Shown here in pieces: positions 2,668-54,957 of a stretch of 64,000 bases of DNA. The notes below the pieces were generated by a model, which made no database searches, was not told the origin of the DNA, and saw nothing but the letters and a program-made list of their open reading frames with translations. Position numbers and translations under genes: made by a program. Source of the DNA: Deltaproteobacteria bacterium (lineage in GTDB: Bacteria > Desulfobacterota > Binatia > Binatales > Binataceae); NCBI GenBank assembly GCA_003135135.1, contig PLDK01000041.1, forward strand, positions 1 through 64,000, in the 5' to 3' direction. Numbering within the stretch: the first letter of the stretch is position 1; the number at the start of each line of letters is the position of its first letter.

Positions 2668-2693
2668 ACGGCGGGCCAGCAATGGCCCGCCGT
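2668..2693 (+). terminator. Strong hairpin after the 494-aa protein gene
   Basis: A perfect 11-bp GC-rich stem (ACGGCGGGCCA / TGGCCCGCCGT) closes on a GCAA tetraloop 33 nt after the stop. No U-tract follows, so it may act as a mRNA 3' stabiliser or a weak terminator. Confidence 0.6.
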
Positions 2694-2720
2694 TCGCATT
2701 CCCGCCGCTCGTTCGTCTTC

Positions 2721-2752
2721 TGTCATTGTACGGCGCAGCGAAGAATCCCGGT
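2721..2752 (+). repeat. REP-like repeat copy A
   Basis: TGTCATT, then GCGCAGCGAAGAATCCCGG at the 3' side of the GIY-YIG gene. The GAGCGAAGCGAAGAATCCC theme is a dispersed repeat that I know from many environmental bacterial genomes. Confidence 0.7.
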
Positions 2753-2758
2753 CTTTGC

Positions 2759-3058
2759 CTACGACTCAGCACTCAAGTCCCGCCACGAAGGGTTTTCTGC
2801 TTCGATGAGTGCAATCTTTCTCGCCCGCGATTGCCCCTTGATCTGTTTCTCGGCGGCGATTGCCGCGGCGATGTCGTCGGTCTCTTGAAAATAGACGAGA
2901 CGGTTGATCCTATAGCGCTTTGTGAATCCAGGTACCGCGCCGGTTTTGTGTTCATTCACACGCCGCTCGAGGTCATTGGTTACCCCGGTGTAGAGCGTTC
3001 GCGACGCGCTGCTCATTATATAGACGAAGTAGCGCTTGTTGCTCGATGGTTTCCGCAC
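2759..3058 (-). CDS. GIY-YIG nuclease superfamily protein, 99 aa
   Basis: The domain starts YFVYIMSSASRTLYTGVTND, matching the VYI...LYIGVTNDL signature of small stand-alone GIY-YIG proteins (UPF0213/YhbQ-like), with Thr replacing Ile in Y-I-G. The family Arg and the ERRVNEHK, GFTKRY and EKQIKGQSR blocks follow, and the end ENPSWRDLS is typical. The family is usually 80-100 aa, so the GTG at 3058 is the likely start. A longer frame reaching 3325 only translates flanking repeat DNA. Members cut DNA as structure- or site-specific nucleases, although many are uncharacterised. The gene lies between inverted repeat copies, which suggests it belongs to a mobile or self-propagating unit. Confidence 0.85.
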   Translation of the reverse strand: MRKPSSNKRYFVYIMSSASRTLYTGVTNDLERRVNEHKTGAVPGFTKRYRINRLVYFQETDDIAAAIAAEKQIKGQSRARKIALIEAENPSWRDLSAES

Positions 3059-3064
3059 ACAGCT

Positions 3065-3110
3065 ACCGGATCCGGGATTCTTCGCTGCGCAGACTCCGCT
3101 CTGAATGACA
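3065..3110 (-). repeat. REP-like repeat copy B (inverted)
   Basis: Read on the minus strand: TGTCATTCAGAGCG, an 11-base insertion relative to copy C, then GCGAAGAATCCCGGATCC. It borders the 5' end of the GIY-YIG gene. Confidence 0.75.
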
Positions 3111-3188
3111 CAAAAAAGGGGGAGGGGGAAGAATCGCGGACCGAACACTCCCGGCTCTGTGCTCCTTTGCCCTTCTGTCAATCCTTTT

Positions 3189-3226
3189 CTGTCATTCAGA
3201 GCGAAGCGAAGAATCCCGGATCCGAA
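3189..3226 (+). repeat. REP-like repeat copy C
   Basis: TGTCATTCAGAGCGAAGCGAAGAATCCCGGATCC in direct orientation with copy A, 80 bp beyond copy B and 80 bp before the next gene. Copies B and C share the TGTCATTCAGAGCG head and the GCGAAGAATCCCGGATCC tail. Confidence 0.75.
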
Positions 3227-3306
3227 ACTATTTCCGCGCCGCCGGTTTTCGCGTAAAGTGCGCGAACGGAAATGATCTCGAAAATTCAGCGTTTGGAAGG
3301 AGAGCA

Positions 3307-4137
3307 ATGGGTATGAAATTCGCATTCACCGCGGCCACCGTGATGGCCCTTGCGATGGCCGCTACCAGCGCGTCGGCCGGGGTTGTAATCTCGCAGGAGA
3401 TGGTCAACCAGACCGGCGCGCAAAAGACCGATCAGACCGTGATGGTCCAGGGTCACAAGCAGAAAGTCATCAGTGGCGATGATGAGGAGATCATTACCGA
3501 TCTCGACGGCGGCGCGATTTATATTATCAAGCCGAAGACCAAACAGTACTATCAGGGTAAGTTTCCGCCCGCCGGCGCGTACGCGATGAAACTGTTTTGG
3601 GAAGGAACATTCGTCGGAGTCGACAAGGCCAGCGGCGCCGATAAGGTGGCCGGATACGCCTGTCAGGATTACGCCGGCTCAGTGGCCGCCGCGCGCCACA
3701 TCCTCACAATGACTAAATGCGTGTCGAGCGACGCGCCCGGCGCCAAGGAGTACGTTGAGTTTCAAAAGGCGATGGCGGATAAGCTCAAGGGCACGCATCT
3801 GGCGCCCAAGGGTGAAACTCCTGACGGCATCCCGGTTTCATCGACGCGCACGATAGCGCCCACTCCCTACACGCCGCCGCCCTCACTTCCGCCCGCAGCG
3901 GCCAAGAAATTAATGGAGGCGATGGCCAAGGGCAACAAAACGGTCACCTTCAACACCACGGTTTCCAAAATCGAGGTAAAAGACCTTCCGGCTGAGACAT
4001 TTGCCGTGCCCGCCGGCTACACCAAGGGTGAAGCGCAACCGATAACCCCGCACCTTCTGAAGAAGCCCGGGCAGAGTCCGCCGTCGCCAGGCGCCGCCGC
4101 GGCACCGGGATCGCCCGCTGCTCCGGCCACGCATTGA
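3307..4137 (+). CDS. DUF4412-like secreted protein, 276 aa
   Basis: The start ATG 3307 follows GGAAGGAGAG. Residues 1-24 are a signal peptide ending SASA. The body (about 25-150) has the pattern of DUF4412-type periplasmic proteins: a VVISQEM strand, KTDQTVMVQGHKQKV, then DLDGGAIYIIKPKTKQYY and a GYACQDY segment. Such proteins read like sensors or carriers of unknown ligands; no enzymatic motif is known. A Pro-rich linker (about 185-200) precedes a second small strand region, and the C-terminus is low-complexity Pro/Ala/Gly. It stands alone on the + strand after the repeat unit. Function unknown; export is well supported. Confidence 0.8.
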   Translation: MGMKFAFTAATVMALAMAATSASAGVVISQEMVNQTGAQKTDQTVMVQGHKQKVISGDDEEIITDLDGGAIYIIKPKTKQYYQGKFPPAGAYAMKLFWEGTFVGVDKASGADKVAGYACQDYAGSVAAARHILTMTKCVSSDAPGAKEYVEFQKAMADKLKGTHLAPKGETPDGIPVSSTRTIAPTPYTPPPSLPPAAAKKLMEAMAKGNKTVTFNTTVSKIEVKDLPAETFAVPAGYTKGEAQPITPHLLKKPGQSPPSPGAAAAPGSPAAPATH

Positions 4138-4213
4138 GCTTGATCGACACGAATCGCGGAACTATCGTCATCGCAAGAGCCAAAAGTCAAAAGTGAAAAT
4201 GGGGTGAGCAGCG

Positions 4214-4603
4214 ATGAGATTGGAGACCAGCGCCGCGCACACGTCGCGCCTGGGGCTGGTGGTGATCGCGGCGGTTGTGTTCGCTGTCGGGCTTGGATTG
4301 GGGAACCTCGCGCCGGCGCGGGCACAGACCGATGATGCAGCGCAGAACGCGGCGAGCGATCCGGGACAGGACGCTCAGAGCCCAGACCCCGCCCAGCAGG
4401 CGCACGATGCCGCGGATGCGGCAGAGGCAGCGCTGGACGCGGCGACCGACGCGCGCAATCAGCTCGAGAGCGACGGCGCTTCGCAGGATCAGATCGATGC
4501 GGCCAATCAGGCGGTAACACAGGCGCGAGCGGCCAAGGATGCCGCCGATCAGGCAGCACAAACGGCTGATGACGGCGGGGCGGACGACGCGCAGAGCAAT
4601 TGA
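4214..4603 (+). CDS. Small exported Ala/Asp/Gln-rich protein, 129 aa
   Basis: ATG 4214 follows GGGGTGAG. Residues 1-38 form a signal peptide (VVIAAVVFAVGLGLG, cleavage near ARAQ). The mature part is almost all Ala, Asp, Gln and Asn with heptad-like Ala spacing (AADAAEAALDAATDARNQL), so one helix or coiled coil flanked by disordered acidic tails is likely. No homologous family is recognised. A lipoprotein Cys is absent, so it should be soluble in the periplasm or released. The strong signal peptide and RBS make a real gene likely despite low complexity. Confidence 0.65.
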   Translation: MRLETSAAHTSRLGLVVIAAVVFAVGLGLGNLAPARAQTDDAAQNAASDPGQDAQSPDPAQQAHDAADAAEAALDAATDARNQLESDGASQDQIDAANQAVTQARAAKDAADQAAQTADDGGADDAQSN

Positions 4604-49776: not shown

Positions 49777-50592
49777 ATGCCAAAGACTCAAGTCGGCGAA
49801 GTGAACCTCAACTACGACGTCGCCGGGAAGGGCGAGCCGCTCCTGATGATCATGGGTCTCGGCGCCAGTTCAGCGGTGTGGGATCCCGAGCTGGTAGCCG
49901 AGCTCGCGCGCACCTTTCGCGTGATCACGTTCGACAATCGTGGTACCGGGCAGAGCGACAAGCCGGACGCGCCGTATTCGATCGAGATGTTTGCCGATGA
50001 CGCGGCGGGGCTGCTCGGCAAGCTCGAAGTTCCGCGCGCGCACATCTTTGGCGTCTCGATGGGCGGGATGATCGCGCAGGAGTTTGCGCTGCGGCATCCG
50101 GGTCGAACGGCGACGCTCACGCTTGGATGCACCATGGCGGGTGGCGCGCACGCCGTGCCGCCACCGCTCGAATCGCTGAAGGTTCTGACCGCGCCACGCG
50201 AGGGTCTTGCGCCGGAGGAGTTGGTTCGGCGCTCATGGCCGCTCACGTACACGCCAAAGTACATCGCGGAGAATCGCGCGGTGCTCGAGGCCGCGATTGC
50301 GCGCCTGCTCAAGCATCCGACGCCGCCGTTTGCATTCCAACGCCAACTCGAAGGGACCTACACGCTTAAAACTTTCGACCGCCTGCCGCAAATCAAGGCG
50401 CCGACGCTGGTTGTGACCGGCGACGCCGACGTGCTGATCCCGGCGAAGAACTCCGAGATAATCGCGGCGCAGATACCCGGCGCGAAACTACACATCATCG
50501 CGGGCGTGGGACACGTATTCATGGATGAGGGCCGCGACGCATTCCTGAAAGCTTTTTTGCCGTTCATAAAATCGCATCCGATGCAGGGGTGA
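49777..50592 (+). CDS. Alpha/beta-fold hydrolase, 271 aa
   Basis: AAGGAGAT precedes the ATG at ideal spacing. LLMIMGLGASSAVWDPELVA (oxyanion region), ITFDNRGTGQSDKPDAP, the nucleophile elbow IFGVSMGGMIAQEFA (Ser), the acid VVTGDADVLIP (Asp) and the base IAGVGHVFMDEG (His) give a complete triad. The family includes esterases, lipases and C-C hydrolases; substrate unknown. No signal peptide, so cytoplasmic. The stop codon TGA lies in the loop of a hairpin (see the tandem hairpins). Confidence 0.88.
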   Translation: MPKTQVGEVNLNYDVAGKGEPLLMIMGLGASSAVWDPELVAELARTFRVITFDNRGTGQSDKPDAPYSIEMFADDAAGLLGKLEVPRAHIFGVSMGGMIAQEFALRHPGRTATLTLGCTMAGGAHAVPPPLESLKVLTAPREGLAPEELVRRSWPLTYTPKYIAENRAVLEAAIARLLKHPTPPFAFQRQLEGTYTLKTFDRLPQIKAPTLVVTGDADVLIPAKNSEIIAAQIPGAKLHIIAGVGHVFMDEGRDAFLKAFLPFIKSHPMQG

Positions 50593-50746: not shown

Positions 50747-51370
50747 GTGCCTTCGTTTTACGACTTCGCAATCGTCTCCCAGTCGCTCGGCCAGACGCAG
50801 AGCCGGCTTCAGATGGCCGAGACGGTAGGCACATTTCTGGCCAAACTCGACATCGATGAAGCGGAAATCGCGGCGCGATTCATGGTCGGTCGCGCGATCG
50901 TGCTGGGCGGGGAGAAGCGCACCAAAATCAGCGGCCGCGCAATCTGGAAAATCGTCGCGGAGATGACCGACAGCGCAGACCAGGGCGAAGATATCTTTGC
51001 CGCCGCCGAAGACTTCGGCGAGGCGATCGAGATGACGCTCAAGCTTCGCGCGGCCGACCCTGAACCCACTCTCACGATCCGTGAGCTCAACGAAAAATTC
51101 GTCGAGATCGCCGCTATCGAGGGGCGCCACGCGCGCAAGCGCATGCTCGACCGGCTGCGCGAGCTGTTCGCGCGCGCATCGGCATTCGAAGCCAGGTACA
51201 TCGCGAAGATTCTGATCGGCGAGATGCGCCACGGAATGAGCGAAGCGCTGATGCTCGAGGCAATCGCCAGGATGGGCGCGCGGCCGGTCAGCGAAGTTCG
51301 CCGGATTCACATGCGGGAGGCCGACCTCGGCCACGTGGTGCGAATCGTCCGAAGTAGCACGGCGTCGTGA
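50747..51370 (+). CDS. Stand-alone DNA ligase N-terminal (DNA-binding) domain protein, 207 aa
   Basis: PSFYDFAIVSQSLGQTQSRL, FMVGRAIVLGGEKRTKISGR, LTIRELNEKFVEIAAIEG, KRMLDRLRELFARASAFEAR and YIAKILIGEMRHGMSEALML match blocks of the DNA_ligase_A_N domain of archaeal/LigB-type ATP-dependent ligases, in order and over the full 200 residues. The catalytic nucleotidyltransferase domain (KxDG) does not follow; the sequence after the stop is unrelated. It could be a decayed remnant or a true DNA-binding protein. The reading frame is intact, which argues mildly for function. GTG 50747 is likely; an upstream TTG exists. Confidence 0.78.
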   Translation: MPSFYDFAIVSQSLGQTQSRLQMAETVGTFLAKLDIDEAEIAARFMVGRAIVLGGEKRTKISGRAIWKIVAEMTDSADQGEDIFAAAEDFGEAIEMTLKLRAADPEPTLTIRELNEKFVEIAAIEGRHARKRMLDRLRELFARASAFEARYIAKILIGEMRHGMSEALMLEAIARMGARPVSEVRRIHMREADLGHVVRIVRSSTAS

Positions 51371-51444
51371 GCATTACCTCCGAGGCCGCAATCGAGGCTG
51401 CGTACAATGATATACAGCGGTTCACGGTTTCAGCGCGCCGTGAA

Positions 51445-51660
51445 TCAGTGATGATGCTGGACCTGGCTGGGCTCGTGCGCGACGCTCAGCGCCATTCCGA
51501 TAGCCTCGATTTCTGATTGGCCGAAATCCTCGAGCACAAACGCCTCGCCGCCGGCGTCGGTTTCTGCTCGCTCGTAAAGATCGCAGCACCACCAATCGGG
51601 ACCCAATTGGCGCGTTCGGATGACGAAGACATTGCCACAGACCACTTCAACCCGTTCCAT
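51445..51660 (-). CDS. Small protein with its own promoter, 71 aa
   Basis: ATG 51660 has AGGAAGG 8 nt upstream and a promoter-like pair further up. The sequence MERVEVVCGNVFVIRTRQLG then PDWWCCDLYERAE and a region ending AHEPSQVQHHH has mixed hydrophobic/charged composition. Codon use is like its neighbours. No family recognised; a double Cys after WW and a terminal HHH could bind metal. Confidence 0.6.
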   Translation of the reverse strand: MERVEVVCGNVFVIRTRQLGPDWWCCDLYERAETDAGGEAFVLEDFGQSEIEAIGMALSVAHEPSQVQHHH

Positions 51661-51716
51661 AAGAGCCACCTTCCTGACTTCGAATGGCCGCAGGCGCCGG
51701 GAGTACTAAGATGAAT

Positions 51717-51809: not shown

Positions 51810-52370
51810 TTAGCGAGCAGAGCCGATCGAGGCAACCCAGGCGGTCAGAGCGTCAGTGGTCGTGGGGAAGGCGAGGTCGTGCCACGGAATGTCGTCGGGG
51901 GCGAAGTAGCGGACTTCGGTTGCCTCGTCGGACAGAGACGGCGTGTCGATGCCCGGTGCGGCGAGATAGACAACGATAGTCATTGCCGGACTCATCGAGT
52001 CGGTGAACACTCCCAGGAGCGGCCCGAGCGCAACCCGCATCCCAACTTCCTCGCGCGTCTCGCGAACCGCGGCGTCGGCGGAGTTCTCACCGAAATCGAC
52101 GTAGCCACCCGGAAAGGTCCACTTGCCGACCGCGGGTTCGATGCCGCGGCGCAGCAACAATACCCGGCCGCCGTCAACCACGAAGCATCCAGCGACCAGC
52201 TTGGGTCCCGGGAAATGCACGAAGCCGCATCGCGTGCAGACGTTGCGCCGGGCGTTCTCGGGCATAATCAGCCGAGGCGCCATCGCGGCCCCGCACAGCG
52301 GACAGAATCTCACCTTGGCCGGGTAATCGCGCTGCACATGATGGTTGGCGTGAACCGGGTCGTCTTTCAT
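51810..52370 (-). CDS. Nudix hydrolase with N-terminal zinc ribbon (NudC-like), 186 aa
   Basis: Four Cys in CPLCGAAMAP...CTRCGFVHFP make a zinc ribbon as in NADH pyrophosphatase NudC. The Nudix box GGYVDFGENSADAAVRETRE continues EVGM and is complete (GX5EX7REVGX form). Cytosolic pyrophosphatase of NAD-like or nucleoside-diphosphate compounds. ATG 52370 lies 10 nt after the VWA gene stop, so it ends the MoxR operon, an unexpected partner for envelope genes. Upstream in-frame starts would overlap the VWA gene. Confidence 0.9.
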   Translation of the reverse strand: MKDDPVHANHHVQRDYPAKVRFCPLCGAAMAPRLIMPENARRNVCTRCGFVHFPGPKLVAGCFVVDGGRVLLLRRGIEPAVGKWTFPGGYVDFGENSADAAVRETREEVGMRVALGPLLGVFTDSMSPAMTIVVYLAAPGIDTPSLSDEATEVRYFAPDDIPWHDLAFPTTTDALTAWVASIGSAR

Positions 52371-52380
52371 CGAACTGCTC

Positions 52381-54957
52381 TCATGCAGTGAGGCGGCGAA
52401 CCAAGGCTTCGCCAATAAGCATAATCATCGCCGCGACGAGCAGGTACGGATTCATCGAGACGCGGCGCTCGAGCGTGGCGCGTTGCGTCGAGACTTCCGC
52501 CGGCGACGGATTGAGACGCCCGCCGGTGGCGGACGCGAGTTGTTCGAGCAGTCCGTAGTTGGGCTCGGGCTGCGGCAGTTCGGCGTTGACGGACGGACTG
52601 ACGGTGAACGCGAGCGGCGGGAACTTCTTGTCCTTGCCGGCCGGCGAGCGGACTTCGAAGTAGTAATTGCCGGGGGCTGGCGCGTCGATCGATCCCGACA
52701 GCTCGCCCACAACTTCTTCGGTTAGTGCGGTTTCAGTCCTGGTTCCGTTGGGCCGCGTCACGAGCACGGTTACCAGGCGGGCCGCGTTGCCCGGCTCCGC
52801 GCTGTAGTCGGTCAGCTTGATATTGATCCGGCCTGCATTGTAGCCGAGTGCGACGTCGATTTTGGGCTCGGCGGGCATCTCCGGCGTCATCCAGGCGAGC
52901 ATGCGATCCCAAAGCGGCTGAAAAACATTCGCGCTGACCCACCTCCCGGACCATCGCCCGCTCGCATCCGTGGTCACCGCCATCGCCTTGCCCGCGCCGT
53001 ACTTCCAGCTCGCGATGACGGGTTCGCGCGTGCCGCTGCGATCCACGTACATGCTCATGGTGGCGCGCGGTTTGATTTCGGTGGAGACGTAGCCCTTGAG
53101 CGGCGGCATCTGGCGCGCCGCGAGATCTTTCAAAATCGCGTCAGGGTTTTCGGTACGCGGTGTGAATTCTTTTTCGACCATCGTGATCTCGCCGCCGTGC
53201 GCGCGAAAGTCTTCGACGAAAAGCTGGGGCAGATTGCTCGGGTTGTCGGTCTGATAGTAGGAACCGCCGCCGTACCTGGCGATCGCCTGGAGCAGGTCCA
53301 CGTTGGCGTCCCGGCCGACCGCGATCGTCGAGATCGTCGTGTTGGCGTCATGATGCATCCGCGAGACCAGGTCGTAGTACATCTCGGCGGTGCCTCCGGT
53401 CTCGCCGTCGGTGAGGATAACGACGTGCTTGACCTGTGCGCCGCTGTTGCCGAGCATGCGCTCGGCCTCGCGCAGCGCTGGAATCATGAAAGTCTGGCCA
53501 TGCGCGGAGAGCCGGTTGATCATCTGATCGAAATACGGGCGGCTCTGCGCGACGGACTGCAGCGGGATGACGACGAACGGTTGCGAGTCGAATCCGACGA
53601 CGCCGATAAGGTCGTTGTCCTTGAGAGTTCTGGTGACGGTCTCGGCGGCGGCTTTGGCGTAGGTGAGTTTGTCGTTGCGGCCCATCGAGCCCGACTTGTC
53701 GATAATGAGCACCAGCGCGCGTTTCTTTTCCTTGTGCTGCGGCGGCTTCATCGTCACCGGCATCACCTCAGCGAGCGGACTGTCGGCATAACCGCCAAGG
53801 CCGAAACTCGAATCGCCACCGACCATCGCGAGCGAACCGCCGTGGCGCACGTACTCCGCCATCGCGTTCTGCGCGGCCGGCGCGATTCGTTCGCTCGGCA
53901 CGTTGTTGATCAGGATCGCGTCGTAACCCGAGACGGCGCCGTCCCAGGCCGCACCGGTGACGGGCACGACGGTTGGTTCGAGTCCCATCCGATTGACGAC
54001 GATGCCAAGATAGTTCGCGTCCCTGGCGCTGCCGGTAAGAATCAGAACTTTGCGGCGCGCGCCCACTCCCACCCATCCTTTGAGAGAGTCGTCCTCGGGG
54101 TACGCGTCGAGCGCGGGATTGTCGGGCTTGAAGGCGGCGGTGTACGAGGCCAGGCCGGCGGTTTCGTTGCGGACCGGGAAGTCGAAGCGCTGCGAGCCGC
54201 GCGCCAGCGTCACCTTGCGCTCATCGATTAGCGCGCCGTCGCGCTCGATGGTGACCGTCCCCGTCACGGGCACGTCGTTAAGATTCTCCAGCGTGACGCC
54301 GAGCGCGAACGCAGCCGCCTTCTCCAGCGCCGGTGGAAGCGAAAGCGCCGTCATCGCGACGTTGGGGATCGAACGCGCGCCGGGCGGCGTGAAGATGTCG
54401 AGGCGAATCTCGGCGGAGACAATCGCGCTTATCGCGCGCTCAGCGTCGCCGCGATTTTGCCATCCGTCGGTCACCATCACAGCCGGGCCGCCATGCGCGT
54501 CGGGATCTGCGGCGATACGGTAGAGCGCGCTCTCAAGGTTGGTCGCGCCGGGCCCGCATTCGGGGCATCCGGTTCCGTTGGCGAACGCCGATTCGACCGC
54601 GCCGATCGATTGAGGCACCGCGCTGGCTGCGAACATGTACGCGGGGTCTCCCGCGCGCAGACCAAGGTCGTCGCGGATAAGCTTGAGCGTCCACGCGCGC
54701 ATCGCTGGCGTGATACTGGCGCTCGCATCGACGATTGCGGGCCGCGCGGCCCCTTCGGAATGCATTACCTGCTGCGGATTTGCGAACGCGACAACGAACA
54801 GGACGAGCACCATCGCGCGCATCAACGGTGCAAACACGCGGCGAATTTCGCGCGCGTTGACCAGACCCCAGAGCGCAACGATCGCGGGAATCGCGAGCAG
54901 ATAGAGCACCTCGCGATGAGCAAAGGTCAGATCGTGCTGGAAGACTGTTGGAATCAC
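52381..54957 (-). CDS. Membrane VWA-domain protein with N-terminal BatB/C-like part, 858 aa
   Basis: GTG 54957 overlaps the BatA stop (GTGA); a longer frame to 55593 lies inside the BatA gene. Two helices near the N-terminus (YLLAIPAIVALWGLV, MVLVLFVVAFANP), a GATase1-like sandwich (about 345-440, WVGVGARRKVLILTGSARDA), then a VWA domain with a complete MIDAS (LIIDKSGSMGRN, TDGETGGTAE) at about 465-640. A beta-rich region follows and a C-terminal helix (YLLVAAMIMLIGEALV). MoxR/VWA systems act as chaperone-like assemblers of metal centres or membrane complexes. The MIDAS is intact, so this is likely the functional VWA of the operon. Confidence 0.88.
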   Translation of the reverse strand: MIPTVFQHDLTFAHREVLYLLAIPAIVALWGLVNAREIRRVFAPLMRAMVLVLFVVAFANPQQVMHSEGAARPAIVDASASITPAMRAWTLKLIRDDLGLRAGDPAYMFAASAVPQSIGAVESAFANGTGCPECGPGATNLESALYRIAADPDAHGGPAVMVTDGWQNRGDAERAISAIVSAEIRLDIFTPPGARSIPNVAMTALSLPPALEKAAAFALGVTLENLNDVPVTGTVTIERDGALIDERKVTLARGSQRFDFPVRNETAGLASYTAAFKPDNPALDAYPEDDSLKGWVGVGARRKVLILTGSARDANYLGIVVNRMGLEPTVVPVTGAAWDGAVSGYDAILINNVPSERIAPAAQNAMAEYVRHGGSLAMVGGDSSFGLGGYADSPLAEVMPVTMKPPQHKEKKRALVLIIDKSGSMGRNDKLTYAKAAAETVTRTLKDNDLIGVVGFDSQPFVVIPLQSVAQSRPYFDQMINRLSAHGQTFMIPALREAERMLGNSGAQVKHVVILTDGETGGTAEMYYDLVSRMHHDANTTISTIAVGRDANVDLLQAIARYGGGSYYQTDNPSNLPQLFVEDFRAHGGEITMVEKEFTPRTENPDAILKDLAARQMPPLKGYVSTEIKPRATMSMYVDRSGTREPVIASWKYGAGKAMAVTTDASGRWSGRWVSANVFQPLWDRMLAWMTPEMPAEPKIDVALGYNAGRINIKLTDYSAEPGNAARLVTVLVTRPNGTRTETALTEEVVGELSGSIDAPAPGNYYFEVRSPAGKDKKFPPLAFTVSPSVNAELPQPEPNYGLLEQLASATGGRLNPSPAEVSTQRATLERRVSMNPYLLVAAMIMLIGEALVRRLTA

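Follow-up and report, generated by a model that had tools for sequence, protein, structure and literature searches.

The short gene and its neighbours

The window analysed here is a stretch of 64,000 nucleotides from a genome of the Candidatus Binataceae. We call this genome G000 (3.73 Mb, 51 contigs, 98% complete); G001 to G006 are the congeners and relatives with which it was compared. The locus carries the following features.

49777–50592, forward strand: alpha/beta-hydrolase-like gene, named from its sequence alone and recognised by synteny.
50747–51370, forward strand: gene for a stand-alone DNA_ligase_A_N domain, the DNA-binding domain (DBD) of ligases, supported by Pfam, AlphaFold2, structure matches and selection tests.
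51346–51356, forward strand: deletion junction, where the interdomain linker is fused to codons near the ligase C-terminus, located by BLASTN pieces.
51353–51417, forward strand: scrap from the C-terminal domain of the ligase, lying out of frame (65 bp aligned to the full-length gene of G002 at 80% identity, E = 3e-10).
51445–51669, reverse strand: small conserved ORF of 74 aa downstream of the short gene (74.5% identity to G004 over 216 bp).

The frame 50747–51370 is uninterrupted from its GTG start to its TGA stop and encodes 207 aa, as the original prediction had it. Its GTG aligns with the ATG or GTG starts of full-length ligases. Pfam DNA_ligase_A_N (PF04675) matches the protein over the entire profile (positions 1–174 of 174, E = 7.9e-24) and is the sole match above cut-off; the Pfam search found neither the nucleotidyltransferase domain PF01068 with its KxDG motif nor the OB domain PF04679. 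The earlier reading of this gene as a ligase N-terminal domain without a catalytic domain is thus confirmed. Since both the nucleotidyltransferase and the OB domain are absent, the short protein is unable to seal DNA.

Structure prediction, proposed earlier together with the profile search, leads to the same domain. The AlphaFold2 model is all-helical (pLDDT 90.6, pTM 0.87), and the product is predicted to adopt the fold of a ligase DBD. The top solved structure is the archaeal ligase 3gde (Z 26.4, rmsd 1.9, 206 residues aligned), and all 50 structure matches listed are N-terminal domains of ATP-dependent ligases (Z 17.6–26.4). Archaeal ligases and the human enzymes LIG1 and LIG4 come nearest, in each case through the N-terminal DNA-binding domain. 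A sequence search with the 207-aa protein retrieved 2cfm (E = 2.2e-16, residues 6–202). No convincing promoter or terminator was found at the short gene.

Origin by deletion from a full-length ligase

Relatives in the genus and family possess a LigB-like ligase of about 560 aa. The protein was matched in 41 of the 58 genomes searched, our own included, and within the family mostly by frames of 550–690 aa. Full-length genes are present in the congeners G002 and G004; that of G002 (locus L035) encodes 561 aa with PF04675, PF01068 and PF04679. G002 also carries a second LigB-like copy (L062, contig C418), which ends at the contig edge and contains one undetermined base.

Wherever the locus could be compared among the relatives, the order is the same: glycosyltransferase, small gene, hydrolase, ligase, 74-aa ORF. 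The position is considered orthologous because the hydrolase-like gene adjoins the ligase in G001 to G004; in G006 it has been lost. The 74-aa ORF recurs in G001 (dN/dS 0.28 between G000 and G001) and in G004, where it follows the full-length ligase. Synteny with G002 to G004 and a readable junction establish that the short gene shares descent with the full-length ligase at the same locus. Orthologues, in the earlier proposal a point to check, are stand-alone in G001, G005 and G006 and full-length in G002 and G004. Further downstream the window carries an intact NUDIX-like gene, again named from its sequence (51810–52415, reverse strand). G001 and G005 lack it, and an 89-bp match is all that is left of it in G006. 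The DNA from the ligase to the vWA genes is prone to deletion.

The short gene is the deletion product of a LigB-like ATP-dependent DNA ligase, of which the N-terminal third remains. Compared with the G002 gene, about 860 bp are missing from the window, and in BLASTN the L035 segments 2692–3339 and 4203–4267 abut at window positions 51351/51353. The latter segment corresponds to the C-terminal scrap, which reads EAAYNDIQ in another frame and spans the stop codon of the short gene; its first bases supply the TGA. The original statement that the downstream DNA is not ligase-like therefore holds for most of that DNA, with the exception of 51353–51417. Its suggestion of a remnant proved right, given full-length relatives at the same position and a readable deletion junction.

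One common junction is found in G000, G001 and G005, with TGA and TAA as the stops in G001 and G005, respectively. An assembly error as the cause of the short gene was rejected because three separate genomes have this same junction. The junction of G006 differs: linker bases (RSPGA), present in G002 and lost from G000, G001 and G005, are retained and continue directly into DNA past the old stop. Because these bases are retained as in G002, we regard the G006 deletion as probably independent. Its short gene probably stems from a second, separate deletion in the same linker, and the catalytic domain was thus probably lost twice within the genus; derivation of the G006 junction from the common one is less likely. 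The grouping of G000, G001 and G005 by the common junction is in contrast with the tree of the downstream 7.6 kb, which places G005 and G006 together (support 97). Neither the tree of the N domain (support 54–56) nor that of the upstream region (36) resolves the branching.

Within the class, PF04675 is present in 68 of 148 genomes, and true stand-alone copies occur only in G000, G001, G005 and G006. This count covers frames shorter than 300 aa; a longer frame in G041 (335 aa) combines the N domain with a portion of the catalytic one. Several further candidates were rejected. The short frames of G016 and G075 are cut by contig ends; the 315-aa frame of G003, near a contig end and with an undetermined base inside, includes the start of the catalytic domain; and in G133 (L060, contig C400) a full-length-type ligase is broken up into multiple frames and its catalytic part can still be read. 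This gene is either a true pseudogene or an assembly error. Phage records gave no match to the stand-alone domain, and none of 32 pattern stretches in viral contigs was confirmed. Plasmids contributed four records, three haloarchaeal and one ORF from Tsukamurella.

Constraint on the short gene

None of the four short copies has a stop within the N domain or a gap in the 591 bases compared. In a codon model with the three lineages of the shared deletion as foreground, dN/dS is 0.303 or 0.305 against a background of 0.070, depending on which of two topologies is used. Both dN/dS = 1 (p = 3.5e-5 and 2.8e-5) and equality of foreground and background (p = 8.6e-7 and 6.2e-7) are rejected on these topologies, and a third topology yields 0.301 (p = 6.2e-5 against 1). 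For the tip of G006 taken by itself dN/dS is 0.27 (p = 0.002), all four short-copy tips together have 0.29, and the full-length G002 tip, used as a control, has 0.05. The roughly fourfold rise after the deletion fits relaxed constraint.

Neutral simulations, in which the number of base changes was fixed at the observed value, lead to 39–40 amino-acid changes (sd 3) where 27 are observed; not one of 1000 runs in either of two mutation spectra came as low as 27. All three frames were still open in 280 and 384 of the 1000 runs, respectively, and open frames by themselves are therefore weak evidence. Summed over the three lineages, changes at the three codon positions number 15, 16 and 23, a modest third-position excess. 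The short genes of G000 and G001 align without a gap and differ at 39 of 600 sites. Right after the stop, 13 of 74 sites differ, and in the intergenic DNA upstream 23 of 142 sites do, with 12 gap columns.

The flanking genes have pairwise dN/dS values of 0.14–0.64 in a comparison that leaves out one G006 hydrolase pair, since the gene is lost in G006 and the match is a paralogue, and in which four comparisons lack a counterpart. Given this span, a value of 0.3–0.4 is ordinary at the locus; the short gene itself has 0.31–0.38. It evolves as an ordinary gene under moderate constraint, which is about four times weaker than that on full-length copies. A simple pseudogene, which the original prediction set up as the opposing case, was expected to combine full-length relatives at this position with frame damage. 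The full-length relatives exist, but the frame is open and under purifying selection in four species. Of the usual marks of a pseudogene, neither a broken frame nor a dN/dS near 1 is found (0.30).

At the residue level, 55 columns are invariant across all 18 aligned rows of short and full-length copies, among them M160, R161, H162 and G163. Eleven of 85 positions conserved in full-length copies are altered in at least one short copy. All 14 full-length rows have L59 (window 50921–50923), where the four short copies read T, I, T and S. This residue may once have been turned towards the missing catalytic half; in the model, residue 59 sits in a loop of low confidence, and the full-length model made for interface mapping is poor (pLDDT 71.9, pTM 0.45). 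The literature search returned nothing on the contact residues of the LIG1 DBD.

A proposed retained DNA binder and its alternatives

LigA is present in all 34 genomes of this comparison. PF08494, which we take to mark Lhr-type helicases, occurs in 30 of the 34, including all seven of the genus, and lies in G000 on a different contig from the short gene. PMC10140301 describes LigB in operons with Lhr. G000 contains PF04675 once and PF01068 once. The latter, which answers the earlier question of a catalytic domain elsewhere in the genome, belongs to a LigD beside Ku on another contig (C7). G005 likewise keeps Ku and a LigD-like gene. Neither Ku nor a PF01068 match turned up in G001 (96% complete) or G006 (98%), both of which keep the short gene. 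The absence of Ku and PF01068 from these two, next to sister species with Ku-LigD, amounts to a parallel loss of end-joining genes.

In our judgement, the explanation with the better prospects is that the truncated ligase is retained as a free-standing, non-catalytic DNA binder under relaxed but real constraint. A deletion starting in the flexible interdomain linker took the nucleotidyltransferase and OB domains. The remainder, whose predicted fold is that of an entire DNA-binding domain, would have been kept as a small free-standing protein, relieved of the constraints imposed by the lost catalytic half. Such a protein would most likely grip duplex DNA at nicks or ends via the minor-groove face of the parent ligase without sealing them, and bound breaks could be shielded or passed to LigA or, where present, to Ku-LigD. 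Reportedly (Pascal 2004), the DBD of LIG1 alone binds DNA and aids the core in trans. A DNA-binding role in its own right is possible for the short protein. We infer its expression, DNA binding and role. More specifically, it might be a domesticated, free-standing binder of nicks or ends, cooperating with the NAD-dependent LigA after what were probably two losses of the core in the genus; this narrower version is tentative and, on present evidence, rather doubtful.

The main competitor, which we think improbable but take seriously, is a decaying pseudogene: the ligase became dispensable and lost its core, and the N-terminal frame has not yet had time to break. The constant presence of LigA, which would make the ligase dispensable, is what this account would lead one to expect, and so are a dN/dS four times the full-length background and the probable double loss of the catalytic domain. 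Deletions surround the locus, with NUDIX gone or reduced in three short-copy congeners and the hydrolase lost in G006, and neutral simulations frequently leave all three frames open. It does not explain why, on each of three topologies, post-deletion dN/dS falls significantly short of 1, nor why amino-acid changes are fewer than in every neutral run of both spectra. Moreover, the non-coding DNA next to the gene has diverged about 2.5 times as much, with gaps upstream and none in the gene.

A split ligase, in which the DBD assists in trans a catalytic core from another locus, e.g., LigD, would suit G000 and G005, which retain such genes, and PMC4538836 treats the ZnF-DBD and NTase-OBD of human LigIII as independent DNA-binding modules. 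Yet a separate catalytic domain was rejected as a general partner, being found only as LigD in G000 and as a LigD-like gene in G005, and G001 and G006 keep the short gene with neither PF01068 nor Ku. The DNA-binding adaptor of the original prediction, understood as serving an ATP-ligase core, is for the same reason excluded as a general role. In one study, Sso7d and ZnF domains gave a viral ligase no stimulation in trans (PMC5746248), and we hold the split ligase to be very unlikely. Alternatively, the domain may have left ligation behind and now bind proteins or act as a competitive inhibitor. Ligase DBDs bind proteins too, as the entry 4htp, in which the DBD of human LigIV is paired with a peptide of Artemis, indicates, and new constraints may be behind changes like that of L59; against this, no new partner gene adjoins and the neighbours are the ancestral ones. 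We hold such a role to be equally unlikely.

The locus offers a readable example of an enzyme cut down to its substrate-gripping domain, with intact full-length sisters in the same genus, and the shared junction marks lineages in which constraint after the deletion is measurable. Provided that the short protein is real, it is a natural test of a ligase DNA-binding domain acting alone and a warning against declaring every truncated repair gene dead. If the domesticated binder holds true, a repair accessory factor was created by deleting the active half of an enzyme. Decay, on the other hand, would record the loss of an optional LigB pathway in a clade that always retains LigA.

In the literature searched, with subscription journals outside its scope, we found no report of stand-alone DNA_ligase_A_N proteins nor, among the papers listed for Binatota ligases, of a stand-alone copy. 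The domain is already known; what is new is its retention alone, which is of modest interest pending binding or expression.

A parallel outside the class is the 222-aa ORF WP_082791349.1 on a plasmid of Tsukamurella tyrosinosolvens (L064:2285–2953; PF04675, E = 5e-15), likewise a ligase N-terminal piece without the catalytic domain. Unlike the short gene, its best stretch covers only profile positions 104–174 and it ends just past FKLDGA, so it looks like a broken gene end. As it carries part of the domain, N-terminal ligase pieces evidently arise elsewhere too. With LigB-type ligases (PF04675, PF01068 and PF04679; NCBIfam NF002868) the short gene shares the full-length N-terminal domain, but it has this first domain alone and no ligase capacity. 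L035, full-length with all three domains, itself scores 492 bits against NF002868, below the 641-bit cut-off. In a further difference from the LigB type, the neighbours at the window locus were not recognised as Lhr, phosphodiesterase or MBL nuclease, the neighbourhood being considered without a dedicated search. The predicted structure resembles the DBD of human LIG1 (1x9n: Z 18.7, rmsd 2.8, 199 aligned) and the isolated DBD of human LIG4 (4htp: Z 19.3, rmsd 2.9, 196 aligned). In archaeal ligases as well as in LIG1 and LIG4 this domain is part of a larger enzyme, whereas in the window it is the whole product.
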